DNA from: Hyunsoonleella jejuensis
GTDB lineage: Bacteria > Bacteroidota > Bacteroidia > Flavobacteriales > Flavobacteriaceae
NCBI RefSeq assembly: GCF_900111025.1
Contig: NZ_FOFN01000002.1
Location: 620,001-684,000 of the forward strand
Direction: 5' to 3'
Length of the DNA stretch: 64,000 bases
The notes under the pieces are model-generated. The model saw nothing but the letters and a program-made list of their open reading frames with translations, ran no database searches and was not told the origin of the DNA. Position numbers and translations under genes: made by a program. How positions within the stretch are numbered: the stretch's first letter is position 1; the number at the start of each line of letters is the position of its first letter. Below are positions 1 through 21,131 of the stretch, piece after piece.

Positions 1-125
1 CTTTTGTTGTCTACTAACGTGGAATTTTCTAGAATGGGAAGGTTTCTATTTACAATACAATTTGAGTTATCGCATGACGCACACGACGTATCTTTTAAGG
101 AGCGAAACTTTGTATGTGTAGACAT
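1..125 (-). CDS. Probable Crp/Fnr-family regulator, N-terminus only
   Basis: An open frame starts at ATG 125 (alternative in-frame ATG at 140) and runs off the left edge. About 41 residues are visible. They contain a C-x2-C-x4-C cluster (Cys15, Cys18, Cys23) followed by a hydrophobic-polar stretch. This resembles the cysteine-bearing N-terminus of Fnr-type sensors, where such residues hold an iron-sulfur cluster; no cNMP or HTH domain lies inside the window. The promoter just upstream carries a TAAGTA-N4-TACTTA palindrome shared with the nitrate and nitrite reductase promoters, which fits an autoregulated regulator of those genes. The family call is an inference from a short fragment. Confidence 0.5.
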   Translation of the reverse strand, partial: MSTHTKFRSLKDTSCASCDNSNCIVNRNLPILENSTLVDNK

Positions 126-159
126 GGCGACTGCGGGCATGTTGTTCAGGGTTACACTT

Positions 160-181
160 CAAAAATAAGTAATAATACTTA
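160..181 (-). promoter_or_regulatory. Promoter and 16-bp palindromic operator of the Fnr-like gene
   Basis: Read on the minus strand, a -7 box TATTTTTG (160-167) matches TAnnTTTG. It overlaps the palindrome TAAGTA-ATAA-TACTTA (166-181). The same box-plus-palindrome arrangement occurs at 13008-13029 and 20992-21013. The 6-4-6 layout is that of Crp/Fnr-family sites. Overlap with the -7 region suggests repression, but this is inference. Confidence 0.6.
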
Positions 182-5598: not shown

Positions 5599-5946
5599 AT
5601 GAAAGAGGCTTTAAAAAAACGAACTAAATTATTTGCCCATAACTGCGTGAAGTTAACAAAACTATTGCCGAATGAATATTTAGCAAATCATATCAAAGGT
5701 CAGCTTATTAGGTGTTCTACATCTGTTGCAGCAAATTACAGAGCTACTTGTATAGCGCAATCAAAAGCAAGTTTTGTTGCGAAAATTAGCATTGTGATTG
5801 AAGAAGTTGATGAATCGAATTTTTGGTTAGAGTTTGCTTTAGATGAAAATTTAATTCAAAAAGACAAAATAGATTTCCTTTTAAAAGAATCTAGTGAATT
5901 AACAGCAATCTTTATGGCATCCAGAAAGACAGCAAGCAGGAAATAA
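5599..5946 (+). CDS. Second four-helix-bundle (IVP-like) protein
   Basis: This 115-residue protein belongs to the same family as the product of 1968-2321: RCSTSVAANYRATCIAQSKA and EEVDESNFWLEF align with that protein's signature segments. The two sequences differ considerably, so this is not a recent duplicate. It lies between moaE and moaCB and is preceded by AT-rich, TTGATTATT-type simple repeats (5545-5590). No Moco function is known for the family. It is probably another insertion in the operon. Confidence 0.83.
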   Translation: MKEALKKRTKLFAHNCVKLTKLLPNEYLANHIKGQLIRCSTSVAANYRATCIAQSKASFVAKISIVIEEVDESNFWLEFALDENLIQKDKIDFLLKESSELTAIFMASRKTASRK

Positions 5947-7989: not shown

Positions 7990-9426
7990 TTAATTCTGCT
8001 TTACCAAAACCTTCTTCTCAAAGCTACTTTTAGGAGCTTCGCAAAGTGAACATTGGTAAGTTTTAGGTAATTTTTCAAAAGTTGTGTTTGGGGCAACACC
8101 TTGTGTTACATCCCCATATACTTCGCTATACACAGTCATACATTCAGAACATTGGTAAACATCTTCCTCTATAGTTTCTTTTTTGACAGAAGCCTTGTCA
8201 TCTTCTCCATTTTCAGATCCTAATTGTTCAAAATACAACTGACTCAGTTCCATCAATAACCCAGGAAGTTCTACTTTATCTATGTCTTGTACATGCATAA
8301 TATATTCTCGTGTATTCGGGTCGAAATTCTTAGCATATAATAGATTGTACGTATCTCTTATTTTGAAATTCCTTACAGACTCTGGCTGTTTATTTTTTTC
8401 AATAACTATCGAAGTAAAATTATAGGTATCACTATCATGACTTGTGATACCAAATGTTAGTCCATACGTACTTATATCATTCTGATCGAAATTAGAAACC
8501 AAATATCTCTTAAGGTTTAGTGCTTCTTGATTGTTTACTGGTACATGCCAATTCATCTCTAGCATAGAATGACGCACATTAATACCAAACTTACCCAAAA
8601 GCTTCTCCCAGTGTAGTTTGGCACTTTGAGGAATTCCTTTAATTATAAAAGATTTCCAAGGTGTGATTGAAATTTTACCAATCTTATTTTCAGAACACAT
8701 ATCGCACATGGCCTTTAAAAAAGGTAAATCGTAACGGTTATTCCTCCAATACAATCCTAACCAATAACGGTCGGTACCTATTCTATTCATACCTTCATAG
8801 TAAGGAAATGGATAAAACGGTACTTCCAAAGGTTTATCAACCGTTCTATTATTAGCATCTACGGCATCATTTACAAGCTCAAAAACAGTATCAATTGTTT
8901 CTGGTTCTTCTATTAAAATATGCTCTATCGCCAGTTCAATTTTATCCATATCCCAACTGTAAATTAATGCGGGATACATTTCCGTTTTTGTCCATCCAGG
9001 AAGTCTTAAGTATAAGTACCAATAGTCATCATGTTCCGAAGCTATAAAATTTACATTACCAGTAAATAGAGGCACCAAACGCTGTTTGGGGTCAATAACA
9101 TTTATCCTTAATTTAGGCTTATGTTTAAACTGTTCTAAAACATATAAATAACGGTCGCTTGTTAGCCATGACGTACTAGGTAAAATTTCTGCTGAAACAT
9201 AAGATGAAGCAATGTTTTCTACACCATCTCGTTTCGGTTTTACAAATTGAATTTTATCAAACTGAACAAATTTACTTTCATCTATTTTCTCGGGAAAAAT
9301 AATATCTTGTCGCGAGCCAAAAGAAATAGCATCTAAACCTAAACCTTCAGCAGCTTCACAGATGTATTTTAACTCTCCTGGAGATAATACACCCCCGTTA
9401 ACCATTAATCTATAGCGCTCTTCCAT
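7990..9426 (-). CDS. Siroheme-reductase-fold protein lacking the siroheme motif, with C-terminal rubredoxin
   Basis: The 478-residue protein begins like the ferredoxin-like half-domain of nitrite/sulfite reductases (LMVNGGVLSPGELKYICE, then GSRQDIIF). It later shows ITPWKSFIIKGI, typical of the second half-domain. The paired cysteine motifs that hold the [4Fe-4S]-siroheme centre are missing; only CDMC is present. Residues of about 420-470 form a rubredoxin domain with two CxxC pairs (CSEC and CSLC). The gene is translationally coupled to the upstream nitrate reductase (one-base overlap). I infer an electron-transfer or assembly partner of that enzyme rather than a second nitrite reductase. 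Confidence 0.75.
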   Translation of the reverse strand: MEERYRLMVNGGVLSPGELKYICEAAEGLGLDAISFGSRQDIIFPEKIDESKFVQFDKIQFVKPKRDGVENIASSYVSAEILPSTSWLTSDRYLYVLEQFKHKPKLRINVIDPKQRLVPLFTGNVNFIASEHDDYWYLYLRLPGWTKTEMYPALIYSWDMDKIELAIEHILIEEPETIDTVFELVNDAVDANNRTVDKPLEVPFYPFPYYEGMNRIGTDRYWLGLYWRNNRYDLPFLKAMCDMCSENKIGKISITPWKSFIIKGIPQSAKLHWEKLLGKFGINVRHSMLEMNWHVPVNNQEALNLKRYLVSNFDQNDISTYGLTFGITSHDSDTYNFTSIVIEKNKQPESVRNFKIRDTYNLLYAKNFDPNTREYIMHVQDIDKVELPGLLMELSQLYFEQLGSENGEDDKASVKKETIEEDVYQCSECMTVYSEVYGDVTQGVAPNTTFEKLPKTYQCSLCEAPKSSFEKKVLVKQN

Positions 9427-12400
9427 TACACTAAATTTTTAGAACTCATAAGTATTTCACGAACTTCGCTTTTGCAACTACCACACCCTAAACCAGCTCC
9501 AGTTTTATTGCATAGCTCTGTAAAATCTGTACAGCCTTTTGCAATAGTATCTTCAATATTTCCTGAACCAACTTGACTGCAGGAACAAACTAATTTTCCA
9601 AGAACAGGTTCGTTATTAGATGAACCTCTTAATAAGGTATCGCGTTTATCGGCCATTTCAATTTTGCTCTCTATCATGGTTTTAAATTCAGCAAATTCAT
9701 TTTTATCACCCATTAAAACTGCCCCAACCAACAAATCATCTTTTACAATACACTTTTTATAATAACGTTTCTTTATGTCGGTAAAAATAATTTCCTCAAA
9801 ACTATCATCATTTTCAGGAACATTTATCTCTCCAATACTACACAAATTCAAATCATTGAACTTCAATATATTCATCAATACCGAACCATTATATACACCG
9901 CTTATATCTCCAGCAATAAAATTAGCTAGAATAGTTGCTTGTTCTTCGGCAGCTGAAGTTATACCAAACAATTGATTATTAAATTCAGCTATTTCGCCAA
10001 TAGCAAATATATCTGGGTGAGATGATTGTAAGTACTGATTTACAATTACACCTCTTCTGCATTTAATGCCATTTTCTCTTGCAATTTCAATATTTGGAAT
10101 GGTTCCTATGGCGTAAACAATAGCATTTGCAGTAATGAACTTTCCACTTTTTAATGTGATATTTAACTCTCCCGTATCTTCATCATCAAAGACGGTACTT
10201 ACTTCATTATCAAAATAAATTTGAATGCCCCGTTCCTGCACATCCAAGGCTAAAAGTTTACTTGACACCTTGTCCAATTGACGTTCCATTAAACGAGATC
10301 CTCTTTGTACAATAGTGATTTTAGCGTTTTTGTGTTTCATGGCAGCTGCCAGCTCAAGTCCAAGCAATCCACCGCCAACAATAACCACATGTTGCTCCTC
10401 TGGCGGCAATCCTGTTGCTTCTAAATGCGCCTTAAATTGATCTGCATCAATTTTATTTCGCATGGTAAAACGTCCAGGTAAATTAATCTGAACATCTTTT
10501 GGTACGAATGCGCGACTTCCTGTTGCTAAAATGAGTTTATCAAACGCATGAGTTTCACCATTGCTATCTTTTACAATTTTCTTTTCCTTGTCAATTTGTG
10601 AAATTGTAGTCTCAGGATGCAGATGGATATTAAGTTTATTAAGTTCTAGTTTTTTAATTTTTAAAAGTTGTTCCCAAGTCAATTCTTCAGTGACATATTC
10701 TGGCAGCAGAACTCTATTATAGAATAAATTTGGCTCTTTTGAAAACACATGAATTTCATCTCTTTCATTTTGCTCTCGATAGTTTTGAACAAACCTAAAA
10801 GCCGCAGCTCCAGCGCCGGCAATTATTATTTTTTCTACTGGCTTTTTATATTTTAACACAGCAACACGGGTAAACTTAAAATCAGGTTCTTTGGATATTG
10901 GATCTACAAGAGTGTTGGTTAAATTATTTGCTCTATTCAGGTCATTACTCAATTGTTTGCCCCAATGCATGGGTAAAAAAACAACCCCTTTCTTAATGGT
11001 ATCTGTAACCTTAGCCCGCACTCGTACTACCCCATTTTCTCCACGTATTTCGGTTACGTCACCATCTTTTATCTTATACAAATAAGCATCTACTGGATTA
11101 ATTTCCAAAACAGGTTTTGGGTAATGTGTTTTTAACCTTGATACCTTACCAGTTTTGGTCATAGTATGCCATTGATCGCGTACACGTCCCGTTGTTAAAA
11201 TTAAAGGATAATTGGCATTTGGTTGTACCGACGTATTATAGGTTTTGCTAGGAATATTAAAAATTGCTTTCTGCGAAGCCGTGTAAAATTTTTTATCGAG
11301 AAATAAGCGCGGGGTTCCTTCAGGTTTATGCTCTGGTACCGGCCACTGAAATGTACCTTCGTTTTTTAGTCTATCATAATTTAAAAAAGATACATCAATA
11401 TTAGTGCCTTTTGTCATTGCCGCATATTCGTCATATATTTCGCTGGAATTATTAAAGTTAAAACCCCTAAAGCCCATTCGTTGTGCGAAATCACAAAAAA
11501 TTTCAACGTCTGGTCGTGCCTCTCCTGGAGCGTCAATTTCTTTTGGTAAATATGAAATTCGTCTTTCAGAATTTGTCATTGTACCTTCCTTTTCCAACCA
11601 TGCCGCAGCAGGCAGCACTAAATCTGCAAATTCAACGGTATCAGATTTAAACGAAATATCCTGAACAACTACAAATTTCGCGTTCTTCATTGCGCTTTCA
11701 ATACGATTTAGATTAGGCAAACTAACTAATGGATTTGTACAGGCAATCCAAATAGCTTTCATTTGCCCATTTTCTAAAGCATCAAACATTTCAGTAGCTG
11801 TGAGTCCGGGCTTTGGGTTTATTTCATCTACACCCCAAAACTGGGCAACTTCCCGTCTGTGTTCTTCATTCGCTAAATCTTTATGCACTGCCAAAAGATT
11901 TGCCATTCCACCAACTTCCCTACCACCCATAGCATTGGGTTGCCCGGTAAGTGAAAATGGTCCTGAACCAGGTTTTCCAACTTGACCAGTAATTAATGAC
12001 AAGTTTAAAAGCGATACATTTTTATCAGTACCCACGACGCTTTGATTAAGCCCCATAGCCCACATGCTAATGAACCCCTTGGATAAACCAATATAATTTG
12101 CAGCTTTTTTAATATCACCTTCTGTTACACCGCATATTTTAGACGCCTCTTTTAATGATGTTGATAATATGACATCCTTATAATCTTCGAAGCCTTCTGT
12201 AAAGTTCTTTATGAAAACCTCATCAATAAGACCACTTTTATACAAGCATCTTCCAATAGCATTATAAAGCAGAACATCGGTACCTGGAACTAATTTAAGA
12301 TGTAAATCAGCAAAATTTGCAGTATCAGTTTTTCGGGGATCAACTACAATGATTTTTACATTTGGGTTTTCCTCTTTATGTTTTTCTAATCTTCTAAATA

Positions 12401-12947
12401 ATATTGGATGGCACCAAGCAGGATTGGCTCCCGTTATCAAAAATGTATCCGCTAATTCAATATCTGCGTAAGAAATAGGCACGCTATCCTCCCCAAATGT
12501 TTTTTTGTATCCCACCACAGCAGAACTCATACATAAGCGAGAGTTAGTATCAATATTATTAGTGCCTAAAAATCCTTTAGTAAGCTTATTGGCGATGTAA
12601 TATTCTTCGGTTAAACTTTGCCCAGACACATAAAACCCAACACTGTCTGGACCATATTTTTTTATAATAGATTTAAAAACACTCGCAGCTCTGTCCAATG
12701 CATCATCCCAACTTACACGCTCTCTTGGATGCGAACGACTCCAACGCATTTCAGGATACATAATTCTATCTGAAGTATCGTTAGCTACGTAATGCAAATT
12801 CATACCTTTAGAACAGAGCATGCCTTTATTTACGGGATGATCTTTATCTCCTTCCACAAATACTTTATTGTTATTATCTTTTTTAACAACAATACCGCAA
12901 CCAACACCGCAGTAGGAACAGGTAGTTTTTACTTTGCTTTGTATCAT
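9426..12947 (-). CDS. Assimilatory nitrate reductase fused to FAD oxidoreductase and BFD domain
   Basis: The 1173-residue enzyme starts with a [4Fe-4S] site (Cys10, Cys13, Cys17, Cys45) and the bis-MGD molybdopterin domains of the NasA/NarB type (to about residue 700). A pyridine-nucleotide-disulfide oxidoreductase module follows with two nucleotide-binding motifs, GAGAAAFRF and VGGGLLGLELA. It ends with a BFD-type [2Fe-2S] domain (CSCSQ, then CGSC). The reductase and its NAD(P)H-accepting module, usually separate NasA and NasB proteins, are therefore one chain. It should reduce nitrate to nitrite in the cytoplasm for NirBD. It heads a two-gene operon under the promoter at 13008-13029. Confidence 0.9.
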   Translation of the reverse strand: MIQSKVKTTCSYCGVGCGIVVKKDNNNKVFVEGDKDHPVNKGMLCSKGMNLHYVANDTSDRIMYPEMRWSRSHPRERVSWDDALDRAASVFKSIIKKYGPDSVGFYVSGQSLTEEYYIANKLTKGFLGTNNIDTNSRLCMSSAVVGYKKTFGEDSVPISYADIELADTFLITGANPAWCHPILFRRLEKHKEENPNVKIIVVDPRKTDTANFADLHLKLVPGTDVLLYNAIGRCLYKSGLIDEVFIKNFTEGFEDYKDVILSTSLKEASKICGVTEGDIKKAANYIGLSKGFISMWAMGLNQSVVGTDKNVSLLNLSLITGQVGKPGSGPFSLTGQPNAMGGREVGGMANLLAVHKDLANEEHRREVAQFWGVDEINPKPGLTATEMFDALENGQMKAIWIACTNPLVSLPNLNRIESAMKNAKFVVVQDISFKSDTVEFADLVLPAAAWLEKEGTMTNSERRISYLPKEIDAPGEARPDVEIFCDFAQRMGFRGFNFNNSSEIYDEYAAMTKGTNIDVSFLNYDRLKNEGTFQWPVPEHKPEGTPRLFLDKKFYTASQKAIFNIPSKTYNTSVQPNANYPLILTTGRVRDQWHTMTKTGKVSRLKTHYPKPVLEINPVDAYLYKIKDGDVTEIRGENGVVRVRAKVTDTIKKGVVFLPMHWGKQLSNDLNRANNLTNTLVDPISKEPDFKFTRVAVLKYKKPVEKIIIAGAGAAAFRFVQNYREQNERDEIHVFSKEPNLFYNRVLLPEYVTEELTWEQLLKIKKLELNKLNIHLHPETTISQIDKEKKIVKDSNGETHAFDKLILATGSRAFVPKDVQINLPGRFTMRNKIDADQFKAHLEATGLPPEEQHVVIVGGGLLGLELAAAMKHKNAKITIVQRGSRLMERQLDKVSSKLLALDVQERGIQIYFDNEVSTVFDDEDTGELNITLKSGKFITANAIVYAIGTIPNIEIARENGIKCRRGVIVNQYLQSSHPDIFAIGEIAEFNNQLFGITSAAEEQATILANFIAGDISGVYNGSVLMNILKFNDLNLCSIGEINVPENDDSFEEIIFTDIKKRYYKKCIVKDDLLVGAVLMGDKNEFAEFKTMIESKIEMADKRDTLLRGSSNNEPVLGKLVCSCSQVGSGNIEDTIAKGCTDFTELCNKTGAGLGCGSCKSEVREILMSSKNLV

Positions 12948-13007: not shown

Positions 13008-13029
13008 CAAAACTACGTATTTATACTTA
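13008..13029 (-). promoter_or_regulatory. Promoter and palindromic operator of the nitrate reductase operon
   Basis: On the minus strand, -7 box TAGTTTTG (13008-13015) overlaps a 6-4-6 palindrome that reads TACGTA-TTTA-TACTTA on the plus strand (13014-13029). This 22-bp stretch differs by one base from 20992-21013 upstream of nirB. The leader to the nitrate reductase ATG is about 55 bases. Confidence 0.72.
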
Positions 13030-13145: not shown

Positions 13146-13811
13146 TCAAACCAACCCAAAATCCTTGGCTTTATTGCTTAATTCCATAAGATTCTTTACT
13201 TCCATTTTTTTCATAAGATTGAAACGGTGTACTTCAGCAGTACGCTTACTAATTTGAAGTTCCTCGGCAATATCCTTGTTGTTTTTAAGTTGCAATACAA
13301 GCTCTAATATCTGTTTTTCTCGTTTAGTTAGTTTAAATGGGTCTACTTTGACTTCAATTTTGGAAGACGACATCGAAGAAGATTCACCATTTACAAAATT
13401 ATTCATGATAATGGCAGACACATCACCTGTAAAATATTTTCCGCCAGATGCTACTTTGGTTAATGCTTTTAAAAACTCCTCTTTACTTGCCCCCTTAAGT
13501 AAATACCCATCCGCTCCGGATCTAATAGCCTGAACCACATACTCCTCTGAATCGTGCATTGATAACACTAATGTTTTTACCTCTGGAAATGACTTTTTTA
13601 CCTCGCCAACAACTTCAATACCATTCATTTCAGGCATTCGAATGTCAACAATCAATATGTGAGGTTGATTTCTTTGTAGCACCTCTAAAGCCTCAATACC
13701 ATTTGAGGCTTCATCAATTACGTCAATACCTACTTGGTCTTCTAAAAGTGCGCGAATTCCATCCCTTACCAAAATATGATCATCAGCAAGAACAACATTA
13801 ATTTTATCCAT
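13146..13811 (-). CDS. NarL/FixJ-type response regulator
   Basis: This 221-residue regulator has a receiver domain with acidic residues Asp10 and Asp11, phospho-acceptor Asp56 (in IVDIRMPEMNG) and a lysine in LLKGASKEE. The C-terminal LuxR-type HTH runs from LTKREKQILELV to SKRTAEVHRFNLMKKM. It lies between the nitrate reductase operon and the genes leading from the NarX-like kinase (15411-17225), so the two are probably a cognate pair. Its own promoter carries a TAAGTA-N4-TACGTA palindrome (13844-13859). A role in nitrate/nitrite control is inferred from context. Confidence 0.9.
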   Translation of the reverse strand: MDKINVVLADDHILVRDGIRALLEDQVGIDVIDEASNGIEALEVLQRNQPHILIVDIRMPEMNGIEVVGEVKKSFPEVKTLVLSMHDSEEYVVQAIRSGADGYLLKGASKEEFLKALTKVASGGKYFTGDVSAIIMNNFVNGESSSMSSSKIEVKVDPFKLTKREKQILELVLQLKNNKDIAEELQISKRTAEVHRFNLMKKMEVKNLMELSNKAKDFGLV

Positions 13812-13829: not shown

Positions 13830-13859
13830 CAAATTTAAGAAATTAAGTAACATTACGTA
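13830..13859 (-). promoter_or_regulatory. Promoter-like region with operator upstream of the response regulator
   Basis: A -7-like box, TAAATTTG on the minus strand (13830-13837), precedes the response regulator. Further upstream is TAAGTA-ACAT-TACGTA (13844-13859), one arm base away from the palindrome at the other nitrate-locus promoters. Here the palindrome lies 6 bp upstream of the -7 box instead of overlapping it. Confidence 0.5.
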
Positions 13860-15410: not shown

Positions 15411-17225
15411 TTACAATAAGGGTATATTTAAAGTAACTCTAGTACCTTTGCCTTCTTCAGAGGTTACAAACAAGCGTCCGTCAATATATTTAATACGTTC
15501 TTTCATAAACGTCATTCCCATACCACCATCTCCCGTTTTTACACGTTTTATTTTATCAGGATTAAACCCTTTACCATTATCATCTACAACAATACTAAGC
15601 ATTTTAGCACTGTGCGACAGCGATACAATTATATGTGAAGATTCTGCATATTTAATGGCATTATTAACCGCTTCTTGTACAATACGGTATACATTTATTT
15701 CAGCTAGCGATTCCATTCGCTGATTGAAATCGGTTTTATTAAAAAACACAATTTCCTTACCAGTTAATCGTGCCAACTCTTGTGTTAACTTTGTTAGGGC
15801 TGGAACAATACCATGATCTGTTAATTCTGGAGGTGTTAAATTAAATGTTGCCGTACGAACGCCCTTAATAATATTTGAAGTCAGCTCTTTTAAATGCTCG
15901 ATTTTAGTTGTTGCTTTTTCAACATCTTTAGTATCGATACTTTCTAGATTATATTTTAAACCCGTTAGCATTTGCCCTATACCGTCATGTACATCTTTAG
16001 CAATTCGGTTTTGCTCTTTCTCTTGGTTTTCAATTATCTTACTAGAGATAATTTTTTGTTGACTCATCTTTTCCTCAAAACTCTTTTTTGTCAATCGGTC
16101 AATTTCTAGTTGAGCAGCTTTTCGTTCTGTTATTTCAGAGGCTATTATCAACAATTCCGATTTTTCTTCAAGCGAACTAAATGGGATTACTGCCATTTCC
16201 AACCATACATCTTTTCCATTTTTACAAGTTGCCTTTACCTCACCTTGCCATCCTGTTTTTTTATTGTTGGTAATAATATTTTCAATTGTTTCTCGCTCGG
16301 TTTCAACTGAGGATAACACATTCCAAAATAAGGCATTATTAGTAACTTTAGAGAATTTAAATAATCTGGAAAATTTATTACCCATATGAATTAACGTACC
16401 ATTAGGGGCTATTCTCGCAAAAAACAAGGTGTCATCCATAGCACGCGTTAGCCCACTTAACTCTTGGATAGATTTTTCTTTTTCCTTACTTAATTCATCG
16501 GCATCAAAAGCCATCTTTTTAGCTTTACTTTCGGCAGACAACAATTCTTTAAGTGTTATACGTACCGATTTTGCAGCGGGCCAAAATATATATATAAACT
16601 CACCTAATAAAATAAGTAATGTTAATGCCATTAACCATAGCTCCAGCTTACCTAACCATGCCACTTTTTCTTCCGCCTCCTTATCGTATTGGTTAACTAT
16701 GGCATCCATTTGTACCAAAAACTCACCTTCATGATTTCTAATTTTTTCAATATCTAAAATATAACTATCTACAGGTATTGACGGTACATTTTCAATTTTA
16801 GTAATTATAGATTTTGAAGCATCTTTTATAGAATCAAAAATAGGATTGAGCACTTTAAATTTAGCATTAACTTCTTTTGAATTTTGCTTTGGCAAACCTA
16901 AGCTATCATTACCATTTTGAAGTGCATCGTGTGAAAGCCCCCAAAGTTTTAAAGTTTGTTTTAAATCTTCTTTAATAATGAATCTATCTTCATGTCTCTT
17001 TAAAGTTAAAAGAGAAACCGCATCTTTGGCTAATTTTTGGCTCAGCATTCGTTGTCTACCCGCAATATTTATAACAGTTGAGTCACTTTCTTGAGCACTT
17101 AAATGCTTACGAATTAAAATCTGACTTAAAATCACAGAAAGTGCAATGGTACTAAAACCGATAATATACAAACGGCGTAATTTATCAAAAGTCCTTTGGT
17201 CTAATGAATTGCCATTGTTTGCCAT
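15411..17225 (-). CDS. NarX-like sensor histidine kinase
   Basis: The 604-residue kinase has a first membrane helix at about 15-33, a periplasmic helical sensor to about 195 and a second helix at about 197-217. A PAS domain (about 255-375), a HisKA_3 dimerisation domain with phospho-His in AKDVHDGIGQ and a HATPase domain (VDDNGKGF, GDGGMGMTFM) follow. The sensor begins with NIAGRQRMLSQKLAKDA, the motif of the PilJ/NarX-type nitrate-sensing bundle. It should phosphorylate the NarL-type regulator at 13146-13811. It follows the DUF4202 gene by few bases, so the two are co-transcribed. Nitrate or nitrite as ligand is an inference. Confidence 0.88.
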   Translation of the reverse strand: MANNGNSLDQRTFDKLRRLYIIGFSTIALSVILSQILIRKHLSAQESDSTVINIAGRQRMLSQKLAKDAVSLLTLKRHEDRFIIKEDLKQTLKLWGLSHDALQNGNDSLGLPKQNSKEVNAKFKVLNPIFDSIKDASKSIITKIENVPSIPVDSYILDIEKIRNHEGEFLVQMDAIVNQYDKEAEEKVAWLGKLELWLMALTLLILLGEFIYIFWPAAKSVRITLKELLSAESKAKKMAFDADELSKEKEKSIQELSGLTRAMDDTLFFARIAPNGTLIHMGNKFSRLFKFSKVTNNALFWNVLSSVETERETIENIITNNKKTGWQGEVKATCKNGKDVWLEMAVIPFSSLEEKSELLIIASEITERKAAQLEIDRLTKKSFEEKMSQQKIISSKIIENQEKEQNRIAKDVHDGIGQMLTGLKYNLESIDTKDVEKATTKIEHLKELTSNIIKGVRTATFNLTPPELTDHGIVPALTKLTQELARLTGKEIVFFNKTDFNQRMESLAEINVYRIVQEAVNNAIKYAESSHIIVSLSHSAKMLSIVVDDNGKGFNPDKIKRVKTGDGGMGMTFMKERIKYIDGRLFVTSEEGKGTRVTLNIPLL

Positions 17226-17237
17226 ACAAGAGAAGCT

Positions 17238-17822
17238 TTAAGAGATTGCTTGTTTCACCAAAGTCAAAGATTTTTCTGAGAAATTAAGTTTTAAGGCTTC
17301 TTGTCGACCTTCATCACTCATTTTTACCCAAGTCTTTTGCAGAATATCAATTACTTTTTCATCTGGATGTTTTTCAGCAAACTCTTCGAAATAATAATCT
17401 AGGAACACCAAACAAATAGTATCCTCTAGAGCCTGTGACTCCTCATTTTTTTTTATGAGTTTTTTCAGGATAATTTTTCTAATTCTAGAGTCAAATTCAT
17501 CGTCATACCCAACTTTTTTCAAAATATCAGAAGTTAAATCAGCATGCATTTTTTTTAAGGTCTCTCGCCATTTTAAGTAGCCAACCCGATCCATAGGATA
17601 TTCATCTCTGGGAATCTTCCATCGACATATATGCTGCGCCCTCGCCGCAATTTGTAAAGCTTTAGACGCATTGGGTTTAAACTGGAGTAATTTTCGCGTC
17701 ATACGTTGGGAATACAACAATTCTTTAGGATATTTTATCCCTGCAATATCATAAGTATTAATATCCTCAGAATTCGCCTTATCTATAAGTGCAATAGCAG
17801 TTTCAAAACGTGTGGGTTTCAT
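17238..17822 (-). CDS. DUF4202 domain protein
   Basis: About 194 residues. The frame is open from a TTG at 17855, but the ATG at 17822 gives the family-like start MKPTRFETAIALIDKAN. Visible conserved blocks are YSQRMTRKLLQF, ARAQHICRWKIPRDEYPMDR and the C-terminal EDTICLVFLDYYFEEF. The scattered His, Asp and Glu residues suggest an HD-like metal-binding fold, but no activity is known. It lies between nirD and the NarX-like kinase, after a long inverted repeat. The context suggests a link to nitrogen assimilation. Confidence 0.8.
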   Translation of the reverse strand: MKPTRFETAIALIDKANSEDINTYDIAGIKYPKELLYSQRMTRKLLQFKPNASKALQIAARAQHICRWKIPRDEYPMDRVGYLKWRETLKKMHADLTSDILKKVGYDDEFDSRIRKIILKKLIKKNEESQALEDTICLVFLDYYFEEFAEKHPDEKVIDILQKTWVKMSDEGRQEALKLNFSEKSLTLVKQAIS

Positions 17823-17926
17823 ATATCTTTTTGAATTATATTCTGTGATAGCCAAGATACATAATTCATTTTTTTAATTAAATATTACAGTATGTATTTT
17901 TAATTTGCAATCTAGGTTCCCATCGT

Positions 17927-18053: not shown

Positions 18054-18437
18054 TTATTCAGAAAAGCCAACATAAACATAATCTTCTTTAATCATAACTG
18101 GGTAAGTTGCAATGGCTTTTAAATCTCCATTTAAGTTTTCACCATTTTCTAATGAAAAGGTTTTTTTATGTAAAGGACAAGCCACTTTGGGGATGCCCTT
18201 ATCGTCACCAATCATTCCCCTACTTAACACCATTTCCATTTTATGCGGACATAAATTTTGACATGCATACCACTTGCCCAATCTTTCAAAATTAAATACA
18301 GCAACTTGTTTATCCTTATACTTTATACAGGCACCACCATCTTTAGGAAAGTCATTTACATTTGCTGCTTTAAACCAAACTTTTACATCCTCTAATTTGG
18401 TAGCTTCGTATTTTTCTAGAATTTCTTCCATTATCAT
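18054..18437 (-). CDS. nirD: Nitrite reductase small subunit NirD
   Basis: The 127-residue Rieske-like subunit of NADH nitrite reductase carries CPHK and CPLHK, so both Cys-x-His pairs of a Rieske [2Fe-2S] centre are present. Many enterobacterial NirD proteins have lost theirs. The start is ATG 18437 or the second in-frame ATG at 18431. It follows nirB by 20 bases in one operon. Confidence 0.92.
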   Translation of the reverse strand: MIMEEILEKYEATKLEDVKVWFKAANVNDFPKDGGACIKYKDKQVAVFNFERLGKWYACQNLCPHKMEMVLSRGMIGDDKGIPKVACPLHKKTFSLENGENLNGDLKAIATYPVMIKEDYVYVGFSE

Positions 18438-18457: not shown

Positions 18458-20974
18458 TTAAACCCAAGGTTCTGGCATTTTCTGATCTCTCATTGGGACA
18501 AAAACAATGTTATCGTCATCCTCTTCGCTATTCACAAAATGATTGAAACGTTTCATCATTTCAGGATCGTTTACAGCTTGTGTCCACTCACATTCAAACT
18601 TATTCACCAAAGTTTGCATTTCTTTTTCTAAGTCCTCAGCTATTCCCAATTTGTCATCAATAATTACTTCTTTCAAATACTCTAATCCTCCTTCCAACTT
18701 TTCTTGCCACGCGGCAGTTCGTTGTAGAGGTTTAGCAGTTCGCATATAAAACATTAGGTATCTGTCTAAATATTTAATTACCGTTTCGTTATCTATTTGT
18801 TCGGCAAATAATTCGGCATGTCTTGGGTTTGCACCACCATTGCCTCCAACATATAAATTCCAGCCTCCTTCAACAGCAATTAAACCAAAATCTTTTCCGC
18901 GTGCTTCGGCGCATTCTCGGATACAACCAGAAACGCCACCTTTAATTTTGTGAGGGGCGCGTATGCCTCGGTATCGATTTTCTAATTCAATTCCAAAACT
19001 CACACTTTCATCCATACCATAACGACACCAAGTAGAACCCACACAGGTTTTTACAGTTCTTAAAGATTTACCATAAGCGTGACCACTTTCAAAACCGTGA
19101 CTGATTAATTCTTTCCAAATCAAAGGTAGCTGATTTAAAGTAGCTCCAAATAAATCGATACGGACACCTCCAGTGATTTTAGTATAGAGGTCATATTTCT
19201 TAGCTATTTCACCAAGAGCAATGAGTTTATCTGGAGTAATCTCTCCTCCTGGAACCCTTGGCACAACCGAATATGTTCCGTTTCGCTGAATATTAGCTAA
19301 AAACCTGTCATTTGAATCTTGTATGGCGTATTCCTTATTGGCGGTATCAGCATGAATTGTTGCCATTAAGGAAGCAACTAGCGGCTTACACAATTCGCAA
19401 CCATGACCACCATTACCATAATTATCTAGCACTTCATTAAACTTTTGGTATCCTTTTACTTGGATTATTTTATATAAATCTTGTCTGTTATAGTCAAAAT
19501 GCTCACAAATAGAATCCTTAACCTCAATACCTAAAGATTTAAGCGTGGCATTAGTTAAATCTGCAACCATAGGTTTACAACCACCACAACCTGTTCCAGC
19601 TTTTGTACAACTTACCACATCCCCTAAATCTTTGGCATCTCCATTTTCAATTACACCACAAATCTGACCTTTGGTAACACTTTCGCAAGAACATATCTGT
19701 GCCTCATTTGGCAAATCCATTACGTCACCAAGTAATGCACCCCCTTCATTTGTAGGTAAAATTAACTTTGCAGGATCTTCTGGTATAGCCATACCATTTA
19801 GGTATACTTGATGCAACATACTATAATCTGCTGCATCACCCACTAGAATTCCGCCTAGTAGCTTTTTACCATCATGACTAACGTTAATTCGCTTATATAA
19901 ATGCTGTGTTTTATTTTCAAAAATGATGGAATGCCCTTTTGTTGCAGGCATAAACGGCTCACCAAAACTCGCCACATCAACACCAATTAATTTTAATTTG
20001 GTAGACATATCAATATCTGCCGGCATCACTTTATCTGCATTCCCTAATATCTGCTGAACCGCAATATCTGCCATATCGTAACCTGGGGCTACTAGACCAT
20101 AAATCATTTGATTGTATAGGGCGATTTCACCAATAGCATAAATCGCATCATCTGAAGTTTTCATCCTATTATCAACAATTACACCACCACGAACACCAAC
20201 TTCCAACCCACATGCTCTAGCCAACTCATCTCTTGGTCTTATTCCTGCAGAAACGATAAGCATATCAACATCTAACATATCGTCTTCTCCAAATTCCATA
20301 CCCGTAATACGACCGTTTCCTAAAATCTGATTTGTTGCCTTACTTAAATGAATATTTAATCCGATAGACTCTAATTTCAATTGTAATACTTGAGAACTTC
20401 TAGAATCCAATTGCCTCGGCATTAATTTTGGTGCAAATTCAACAATATGAGGTTCCAATCCCATATCCATTACAGCTTTACCAGCTTCTAGACCTAGCAA
20501 TCCCCCACCTAAAACTGCCGCCTTAGCATTGGGCTTTTCAGCCTTTAGTTTAGCAGCATAAGCAAGCATTCCTTCTAAATCTTCAATAGTTCTGTATACG
20601 AACACCCCTTCCTTTTCAACACCCTTAATTGGTGGCACAAAAGGTGAAGATCCAGTGGCGAGCACCAAATAGTCATATGAAAACTCACGGTCTTTTGCTG
20701 TAGTTATGGTTTTCGAACTTCTATTGATATCCGCAACACGTTCTCCTGTAATTAAATCGATATTATTATCAGTATACCATTCAACAGGTGCCATCTCTAG
20801 AGCTTTGGCATTTTGACTTTCAAAGAACTCACTAAGATGAACCCTATCATATGCTGGTCTTGGTTCTTCCCCAAAAACAGTAATTTTAAAGTCTTTAAAC
20901 GCTTCTTGGGCCACAAATTTTTCACAAAACTTATAACCCACCATGCCGTTTCCAACTACAATTATATGCTGCAT
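18458..20974 (-). CDS. nirB: Assimilatory nitrite reductase large subunit NirB
   Basis: This 838-residue enzyme reduces nitrite to ammonium with NAD(P)H. It starts with an FAD/NAD-binding module (VVGNGMVGYKF; GGGLLGLEAG). Two BFD-type [2Fe-2S] segments follow (CSCES...CGGC near 430-470 and a second ending CELC). Then come the ferredoxin-like half-domain and the [4Fe-4S]-siroheme domain, with TCVGSTWCRYG and CIRECAEA supplying the four cluster cysteines. All catalytic motifs are present. The promoter at 20992-21013 leaves a leader of only about 13-18 bases. Siroheme synthesis genes and a nitrate transporter are not in the window. Confidence 0.95.
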   Translation of the reverse strand: MQHIIVVGNGMVGYKFCEKFVAQEAFKDFKITVFGEEPRPAYDRVHLSEFFESQNAKALEMAPVEWYTDNNIDLITGERVADINRSSKTITTAKDREFSYDYLVLATGSSPFVPPIKGVEKEGVFVYRTIEDLEGMLAYAAKLKAEKPNAKAAVLGGGLLGLEAGKAVMDMGLEPHIVEFAPKLMPRQLDSRSSQVLQLKLESIGLNIHLSKATNQILGNGRITGMEFGEDDMLDVDMLIVSAGIRPRDELARACGLEVGVRGGVIVDNRMKTSDDAIYAIGEIALYNQMIYGLVAPGYDMADIAVQQILGNADKVMPADIDMSTKLKLIGVDVASFGEPFMPATKGHSIIFENKTQHLYKRINVSHDGKKLLGGILVGDAADYSMLHQVYLNGMAIPEDPAKLILPTNEGGALLGDVMDLPNEAQICSCESVTKGQICGVIENGDAKDLGDVVSCTKAGTGCGGCKPMVADLTNATLKSLGIEVKDSICEHFDYNRQDLYKIIQVKGYQKFNEVLDNYGNGGHGCELCKPLVASLMATIHADTANKEYAIQDSNDRFLANIQRNGTYSVVPRVPGGEITPDKLIALGEIAKKYDLYTKITGGVRIDLFGATLNQLPLIWKELISHGFESGHAYGKSLRTVKTCVGSTWCRYGMDESVSFGIELENRYRGIRAPHKIKGGVSGCIRECAEARGKDFGLIAVEGGWNLYVGGNGGANPRHAELFAEQIDNETVIKYLDRYLMFYMRTAKPLQRTAAWQEKLEGGLEYLKEVIIDDKLGIAEDLEKEMQTLVNKFECEWTQAVNDPEMMKRFNHFVNSEEDDDNIVFVPMRDQKMPEPWV

Positions 20975-20991
20975 AATTACGTATTTAGAAA

Positions 20992-21013
20992 CAAAACTAA
21001 GTATTTATACTTA
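20992..21013 (-). promoter_or_regulatory. Promoter and palindromic operator of nirBD
   Basis: On the minus strand, -7 box TAGTTTTG (20992-20999) overlaps the perfect-armed palindrome TAAGTA-TTTA-TACTTA (20998-21013, plus-strand reading). Twenty-one of 22 bases are identical to the nitrate reductase promoter element. Its location over the promoter core suggests direct transcriptional control. Confidence 0.75.
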
Positions 21014-21131
21014 TTTTTTAAGATAATTTACTAAGAAATTTACGTAGATGTATGATTATTACATAATTCTCAAATTGGTATAGAGATTATTATTTAATAA
21101 GAAAATTAAGGCTTGTGTTTTTGATGAAATA

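Follow-up and report, generated by a model that had tools for sequence, protein, structure and literature searches.

A conserved palindrome at nitrate assimilation promoters of Hyunsoonleella jejuensis and its relatives as the probable operator of a nitrate two-component system

The 64,000-nucleotide stretch of the Hyunsoonleella jejuensis genome analysed here (hereafter the window) encodes nitrate and nitrite reduction genes whose promoters share an almost identical sequence, which raises the question of what protein binds there and with what effect on transcription. Two 22-bp stretches, CAAAACTACGTATTTATACTTA at 13008-13029 and CAAAACTAAGTATTTATACTTA at 20992-21013, differ by a single base. 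A first-pass annotation had read them as one operator, shared by the promoters of nirB and the nitrate reductase fusion gene, in which a palindrome adjoins a -7 box. It had pointed to further copies at 160-181 and 13844-13859, and had suggested a regulator of the Crp/Fnr family that would act by repression. The two stretches, their positions and the further copies can be read directly from the DNA. The sites, their conservation, the fixed register of the TAnnTTTG box and the co-occurrence with a response regulator and a kinase, described below, are likewise features of the sequences themselves.

We propose that the 16-bp palindrome TAMGTA-N4-TACKTA is probably the operator of a nitrate two-component system encoded beside the nitrate genes. 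The palindrome would be the landing site of a NarL/FixJ-type response regulator (13146-13811), and a partner kinase (15411-17225) would perceive nitrate and pass the signal to this regulator. The putative targets would be nrtA (nitrate uptake), nasA (nitrate reduction), a gene of the Crp/Fnr family (fnr-like), the regulator gene itself and nirB (nitrite reduction), the last together with its downstream genes, including that of the kinase. Located on the core promoter, the regulator would obstruct RNA polymerase, and the nitrate signal would relieve this obstruction.

Copies of the palindrome and their conservation

The nas-nir genes and the fnr-like gene described next lie on the minus strand, as do their -7 boxes and palindromes. 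On this strand, both 22-bp stretches consist of the palindrome followed by TAGTTTTG, the first two bases of the box being common to the palindrome. At nasA, which encodes a NasA-type nitrate reductase fused to a NirB-like FAD/BFD module (9426..12947, ATG at 12947), the palindrome TAAGTATAAATACGTA occupies 13014..13029 and the -7 box 13008..13015. Downstream of nasA lies a gene for a protein with a nitrite/sulfite-reductase-like half domain and a rubredoxin (7990..9426). At the gene for the nitrite reductase large subunit NirB (18458..20974, ATG at 20974), the palindrome TAAGTATAAATACTTA occupies 20998..21013 and the -7 box 20992..20999. Two TACGTA half-sites accompany it: one at 20978..20983, after the -7 box and ahead of the nirB ATG, 20 bp from the second half of the operator (offset 30), and one upstream at 21041..21046 (offset -33). 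Behind nirB are genes for a NirD-like Rieske protein (18054..18437), a DUF4202 protein (17238..17855) and the sensor kinase (15411..17225). All 16 clusters mapped have the DUF4202 gene in this place, flanked by nirD and the kinase gene.

The copy at 160-181 belongs to the promoter of the fnr-like gene, which is divergent from moeA and whose coding sequence lies nearly all to the left of the window (its first 140 bases are window positions 1..140; the whole gene, G000:C4:619391-620140, encodes 249 aa with a Cys-rich N terminus). Here the palindrome, TAAGTA-N4-TACTTA, spans 166..181 and a -7-like box, TATTTTTG, spans 160-167. The 2-bp overlap between the palindrome and a TAnnTTTG box is common to nasA, nirB and the fnr-like gene. 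The copy at 13844..13859 is found at the promoter of the response-regulator gene itself (13146..13811), suggesting that this gene may be autoregulated; its -7 box, TAAATTTG at 13830..13837, is at offset 22 from the operator start. Elsewhere in the window, two genes for 23S rRNA-intervening-sequence-like proteins (5599-5946, with a PF05635 match, and 1956-2321, judged by eye) occupy an odd place amid molybdenum-cofactor genes.

TAMGTA-N4-TACKTA has four exact matches in the window, compared with a mean of 0.03 in 100 shuffles, none of which had four or more. The whole genome (3.48 Mb) contains seven exact matches versus one for a reversed-pattern control, and five of the seven are located within 25.3 kb at the nitrate cluster, where they precede nrtA, the fnr-like gene, nasA, the response-regulator gene and nirB. 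The fifth cluster copy lies to the left of the window, 21 bp upstream of nrtA, the first gene of an ABC-type transporter set with an NMT1-like binding protein (the names nrtA-D were assigned in this analysis). Recognition looks strict, since the matches with up to one mismatch in this genome are fewer than those of the reversed-pattern control (40 versus 86) and form no looser class of sites. When up to two mismatches to TAAGTA-N4-TACTTA were allowed in the window, the signal was lost (10 matches versus 8.24 expected).

Conservation was evaluated at the nirB promoters of the best 80 of 562 confirmed matches, i.e. the closest relatives, together with 16 genomes of a relatives set. Matches had to reach 150 bits and to start no later than residue 60 of the reference, and promoters identical over their last 150 bp were merged, which reduced 96 genes to 92. 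In this sample of closest relatives, 88 of the 92 distinct promoters have an exact site within 200 bp of nirB, whereas shuffled upstream sequences hardly ever do. These counts bear out the reading of one shared, conserved regulatory operator, and they contradict the possibility that the motif is no commoner at nitrogen-gene promoters than in AT-rich intergenic DNA. The junction with the -7 box was also confirmed: TAnnTTTG stands in the same register (offset 14) in 72 of the 88 nirB promoters with a site, against a background of 0.0013 per position. Among the 93 upstream sequences used for the dyad scan described next, the four without an exact site comprise a one-base variant (L101), both halves with a spacer of 5 (L116), undetermined bases at this place (L130), and separate half-sites only (L119). 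A dyad scan of 93 nirB upstream sequences without prior motif ranked AAGTA-N4 first, tied with the shifted TAAGT-N6; this dyad was found in 42 of the 93 versus 0.1 in shuffles, and the spacer was 4 in 89 of them. At the other cluster genes, an exact site was detected within 200 bp in 27 of 31 distinct nrtA upstream sequences and 50 of 79 for the regulator gene. The proportions for nasA (26 of 57) and the fnr-like gene (9 of 23) count against our explanation. In one relative (L042 2269-2294; G013:C12:1607269-1607294), three half-sites in the arrangement TAAGTA-N4-TACGTA-N4-TACGTA run into the nirB -7 box TAGTTTTG.

The response regulator and its partner kinase

The palindrome is very likely bound by the response regulator encoded at 13146-13811, a protein of NarL/FixJ type composed of a receiver domain (PF00072, E 2.4e-27) followed by a GerE/LuxR-type helix-turn-helix (PF00196, E 1.7e-17). 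Its nearest solved protein by sequence is NarL (E 1.9e-32, near full-length match), and a partner kinase of HisKA_3 type, as in NarL/FixJ-type systems, is encoded nearby (PF07730 in 15411-17225). The regulator scored below the NCBIfam equivalog cut-offs for NarL (PRK10651, 144.1 bits versus 250) and FixJ (PRK09390, 90.8 versus 255), and its best NCBIfam model was MctR, also below the cut-off (181.6 versus 300). Judged from these matches, the protein is predicted to work like NarL and FixJ while being filed as neither. The best NCBIfam model of the kinase was MctS (135.2 bits, cut-off 700), and its kinase part alone gave 94.4 and 71.1 bits with the NarQ and NarX equivalogs (PRK10935 and PRK10600, cut-offs 553 and 578). 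Because MctR and MctS outscore NarL and NarQ, sequence alone does not mark the regulator and the kinase as a nitrate pair.

Of 40 genomes, the same 16, that of H. jejuensis included, encode the kinase (E 1e-30), NirB (E 1e-100) and the regulator (E 1e-50). Among the best 80 nirB loci, 66 have the regulator in the same stretch, and 13 of the other 14 genomes carry it elsewhere. Counting against the proposal, the genome of L151 (2.3 Mb) has the site and a kinase, and a search at E 1e-50 found no regulator in it. Of 295 genomes drawn class-wide, 15 have NirB, including that of the window, and the other 14, three of them from the same family, were compared. A close regulator (E 1e-69 or better) is encoded in five of these; the other nine have at most a more distant one (E 1e-46 or weaker). 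Exact sites in the 12.6-20 kb around nirB were present in all five genomes with a close regulator and in none of the nine without, and in four of the five a site lies directly upstream of nirB. Base composition alone does not explain this difference, since four of the nine siteless genomes have 37-41% G+C. Two of the nine (G328 and G280) possess a distant regulator-kinase pair (35-39% identical) beside nirB and no site. Several observations count against the association: G245 has the regulator and lacks an exact site at nirB, G139 and G103 each have one further exact site inside the nirB coding sequence, and genome-wide pattern counts separate regulator-bearing and regulator-less genomes poorly (pattern versus control, 7 versus 3 in G016 and 6 versus 2 in G024, both regulator-less; 4 versus 4 in the regulator-bearing G038).

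The recognition helix and the half-site also vary together. In 82 loci with a full regulator (those matched over 180 residues or fewer were excluded from the helix count and the tree), TACGTA represents 28% of the halves in the 53 loci with Val (RTxEVHR) and 78% in the 15 loci with Thr (RTxETHR); in the 14 loci classed as "other" by helix pattern, 12 of which also have Val, the proportion is 27%. The counts are strong, yet the covariation of Val/Thr with A/C corresponds to a single change on the tree and is therefore suggestive only, and we rejected it as an independent proof. In an alignment with NarL, the covarying residue falls on a Val of the helix, V189, which has a role in DNA contact.

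A Pfam scan of the kinase detected only PilJ (PF13675), PAS_9, HisKA_3 and HATPase_c models, with no HAMP or GAF, and a P-box, INIAGRQRMLSQKL, lies between two hydrophobic helices of the PilJ/NarX-type sensor. In profile searches, the sensor domain matched PilJ (E 9.6e-08) and McpN (E 5.9e-07), and NarQ only at E 0.31. The best PDB fold matches of its AlphaFold model (mean pLDDT 84.9) were McpN and then NarQ; only two had E <0.001, both of them McpN chains. The P-box G-x-x-R (G56 and R59) is invariant in all 18 aligned sensors, drawn from 21 kinases from outside the 80 loci with G013, G038 and G245 left out. The nitrate chemoreceptor McpN, which is not a kinase, shares this PilJ sensor domain; its R61 holds nitrate and its G58 contacts it (PMC6381276), and the matching Arg and Gly are invariant here. 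Counting against this picture, the kinase of G013 and G038 (two of the 16 genomes of the first set) has no PilJ domain. Bacteroidetes nitrate/nitrite-sensing histidine kinases (NSHK) are already known as a sequence class, in part with PAS and with no HAMP or GAF, as described in an excerpt of PMC8199190. By its PilJ/NarX-like sensor, P-box, PAS and absence of HAMP/GAF, the predicted kinase of the window fits this class, with which it also shares the nearby nitrate genes; that excerpt gives neither an operator nor a regulon for the class. Given its NarX/McpN-type sensor domain, the kinase most likely responds to nitrate, and we regard nitrate as the likely signal with good confidence.

The candidate system resembles NarX-NarL and NarQ-NarP of E. 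coli in its four-helix nitrate-binding-type sensor with a P-box, its HisKA_3 kinase, its nitrate and nitrite reductase gene targets, its 16-bp inverted repeat and the closeness of its regulator to NarL among solved proteins. Unlike those systems, its kinase has a PAS domain and no HAMP/GAF match, both proteins stay below the NCBIfam cut-offs, the targets look assimilatory, the site lies over the -7 box and the half-site is TAMGTA. E. coli NarL sites have a 7-2-7 layout, an inverted repeat of the heptamer TACYYMT. With this consensus, length and symmetry agree while position 4 (G here) differs. In the rhizobial FixL-FixJ system, TAAGTA-N4 is also the layout of the S. meliloti FixJ site, TAAGTAATTTCCCTTA, and SELEX with FixJ yielded GTAMGTAG (PMC4999443). 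The FixJ-type pattern TAAGTA-N4-NNNTTA from the same source strictly fits two of the four window sites (166-181 and 20998-21013), the other two having one TACGTA half, and a gene of the crp/fnr family is a target in both systems (fixK there, putatively the fnr-like gene here). In contrast, only one half of the fixK site matches, FixL is a haem oxygen sensor whereas the sensor here is of PilJ type, and the regulator scores NarL above FixJ.

In a search of the open-licence literature, we recognised no paper giving an operator or regulon for Bacteroidetes nitrate-sensing kinases. If the proposal is true, it would provide a DNA target for this kinase class (described in PMC8199190), a compact regulon readable from genome sequence, and a testable model of how marine flavobacteria switch on nitrate use. 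It would also be a natural case for the action of a NarL/FixJ-type regulator at a Bacteroidetes -7 promoter and, in relatives, for a possible link between nitrate and the TCA cycle.

Position of the site and the sign of regulation

In Flavobacterium psychrophilum, the TAnnTTTG box spans -12 to -5 (PMC9723704). On this scale, the site covers roughly -26 to -11 at nirB and nasA. The box of nasA is at offset 14 in 13 of 26 promoters and at offset 22 in four, one promoter having both, and ten have none near. At the regulator gene, 39 of 50 promoters have the box at offset 22-26, which places the site at about -35 to -20. At nrtA, 17 of 27 promoters have a box whose position, 14-17 bp ahead of the site, places the site at about +4 to +20; the other registers are offset 14 in five promoters, all from Aquimarina, and 25-27 in four. 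An extra half-site can lie past the palindrome at a distance of 20-24 bp: 52 of 88 nirB promoters have it on the downstream side, 18 of 27 nrtA promoters on the upstream side. In addition, 40 of 88 nirB promoters have another at -34 to -30. The -7 box of nirB and of nrtA is thus often enclosed by operator elements, whose order at one gene mirrors that at the other.

Since the position of the site varies with the gene and, at nrtA, with the lineage, it fits occlusion better than contact-dependent activation. On this evidence we lean towards repression rather than activation as the effect of binding. The position over the promoter suits repression, as the first-pass annotation had suggested. If the kinase is activated by nitrate, however, repression of nitrate assimilation by its regulator would require an unusual sign, such as release on phosphorylation or a nitrate-switched phosphatase, which counts against this reading.

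The same response regulator may instead be an activator, a possibility that we consider doubtful and yet worth serious attention. Phosphorylated in nitrate, it would sit just upstream of the -7 box and substitute for the missing -33 element. Nitrate induction of assimilation through a NarX-like kinase would then have the ordinary sign, and NarL/FixJ-type proteins are often activators. A TTG peak at the spacing expected for a -33 element is also missing from the nirB promoters. However, this argument is void because the control boxes lack the peak as well: TTG is found 19-26 bp upstream of 8.3% of 72 nirB boxes and 8.8% of 113 control boxes, with no peak in either set, and the -33 element was discarded as an uninformative test of activation. 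In addition, the box before the site is the only nearby one in the 17 nrtA promoters mentioned above, so that the site is downstream of the inferred start, and the register relative to the -7 box differs by gene and by nrtA lineage (about -15, 14 and 25-27). Repression by the response regulator remains our preferred reading.

Binding by a Crp/Fnr-family regulator, as the first-pass annotation had it, is improbable, whether the protein is encoded by the fnr-like gene at the left edge or by a second Crp-like gene further left. The fnr-like gene is part of the cluster and has a site at its own promoter, and in a 5-6-5 reading, TAAGT-N6-ACTTA, the palindrome has a Crp-like spacing. However, the site does not depend on this gene. 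A search of 54 genomes (47 of the 80 loci plus seven further genomes, at E 1e-80 or better) found no close copy of it in 19; all 19 have the regulator, and 18 keep the exact nirB site, G245 being the exception. Conversely, the site is missing near nirB in all nine genomes without a close response regulator, three of which (G152, G267 and G148) carry a Crp/Fnr-like gene there. More distant paralogs (31-40% identical) are also encoded in genomes in which none of the sites fetched is at a nitrogen gene. The half-site also matches neither wTGTGA nor TTGAC, the CRP- and FNR-like consensus types (PMC1274295), TAMGTA halves being present in 88 of the 92 nirB promoters, and it resembles the FixJ site (PMC4999443). 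On the co-occurrence data, which cover the fnr-like gene, we rejected a Crp/Fnr protein as the binder.

That the palindrome is an extended core promoter or a DNA/RNA hairpin element instead of an operator is very improbable: its overlap with the -7 box at nirB and nasA and the hairpin-like look of similar palindromes between convergent genes elsewhere would suit such an element, but it follows the box at most nrtA promoters, lies at least 8 bp further upstream at the regulator gene, and is absent at all nine nirB loci without a close regulator.

Candidate targets beyond the nitrate cluster

Exact sites were fully assigned to genes in G000, G003, G006 and G007 and partly in G002, G005, G008, G009, G011 and G013; for the other six of the 16 genomes, cluster stretches only were covered. 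Sites were also fetched from regulator-less genomes (six of seven in G016, two of five in G020, four of six in G024, one of three in G014 and the single one in G034). Exact sites are located upstream of acnB (aconitase B) in six genomes (G002, G003, G006, G007, G009 and G011; loci L186, L198, L199, L208, L215 and L227), of sdhC (succinate dehydrogenase cytochrome b) in four (G002, G003, G006 and G007; L191, L196, L209 and L226), and of gltA (citrate synthase) in three (G002, G003 and G007; L193, L206 and L229), often at a similar distance. These genes were assigned by eye and by BLAST, and the G007 proteins also by their families. We tentatively suggest that a nitrate regulator with a FixJ-like operator on the -7 box could control nitrate assimilation in Flavobacteriaceae and also outside this family, and that in several lineages its control could extend to entry into the TCA cycle (citrate synthase, aconitase B and succinate dehydrogenase), which would tie the supply of carbon skeletons to nitrate. 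All genomes with TCA-gene sites come from a single genus, and we therefore treat this pattern as a lead, not as a result.

A site is also found about 31-34 bp upstream of a globin gene in G003, G005, G009 and G011 (single-domain globin loci G009:C17:161769 (L032), L211, L217 and L222; the G009 globin adjoins a haem-protein-like gene). In G006 and G007, a site lies at the same distance, 463-465 bp, from the gene that follows globin in G009, and in G002 it is 554 bp away; we infer a globin in these three genomes too. This suggests that nitric oxide defence may be part of the regulon. NarK-like transporter genes have a site in G002 and G007, as do cluster MFS genes in G012 (family not scanned), G022, G139 and G305. 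None of the 14 sites from the five regulator-less genomes is at acnB, sdhC, gltA, globin or NarK-like/MFS genes. In the H. jejuensis genome itself, no exact site is at a TCA gene, and 20 stretches with 22 of the 33 one-mismatch sites gave no match to acnB, gltA, sdhC, narK or globin.

The two exact H. jejuensis sites outside the cluster are of different kinds. One, beside atpC between convergent genes, is a hairpin-like palindrome. Palindromes of the type TACGTAC/G-N4-C/GTACGTA, including this copy, were set aside as hairpins or another element by their look. Similar palindromes occupy long intergenic regions beside a TatD-like gene in G003, G006, G007, G016, G020 and G024 (genes named by eye), and they occur in regulator-less genomes as well; the loci with longer palindromes near atpC or the TatD-like gene are G000:C2:691671 (L001), L195, L200, L207, L234, L238 and L239. 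The other (L002, 1501-1516) precedes by 138 bp a gene that, by eye, is MenB-like and would serve menaquinone synthesis. It may be a further real target, because G005 has a counterpart, an exact site (L224, at 1921) 136 bp upstream of apparently the same gene. Finally, a site at position 1995 of L219 precedes, at a distance of 251 bp, a gene whose product looks secreted and has a PilJ domain with the P-box INISGKQRMLSQKM, possibly a stand-alone nitrate-binding protein.
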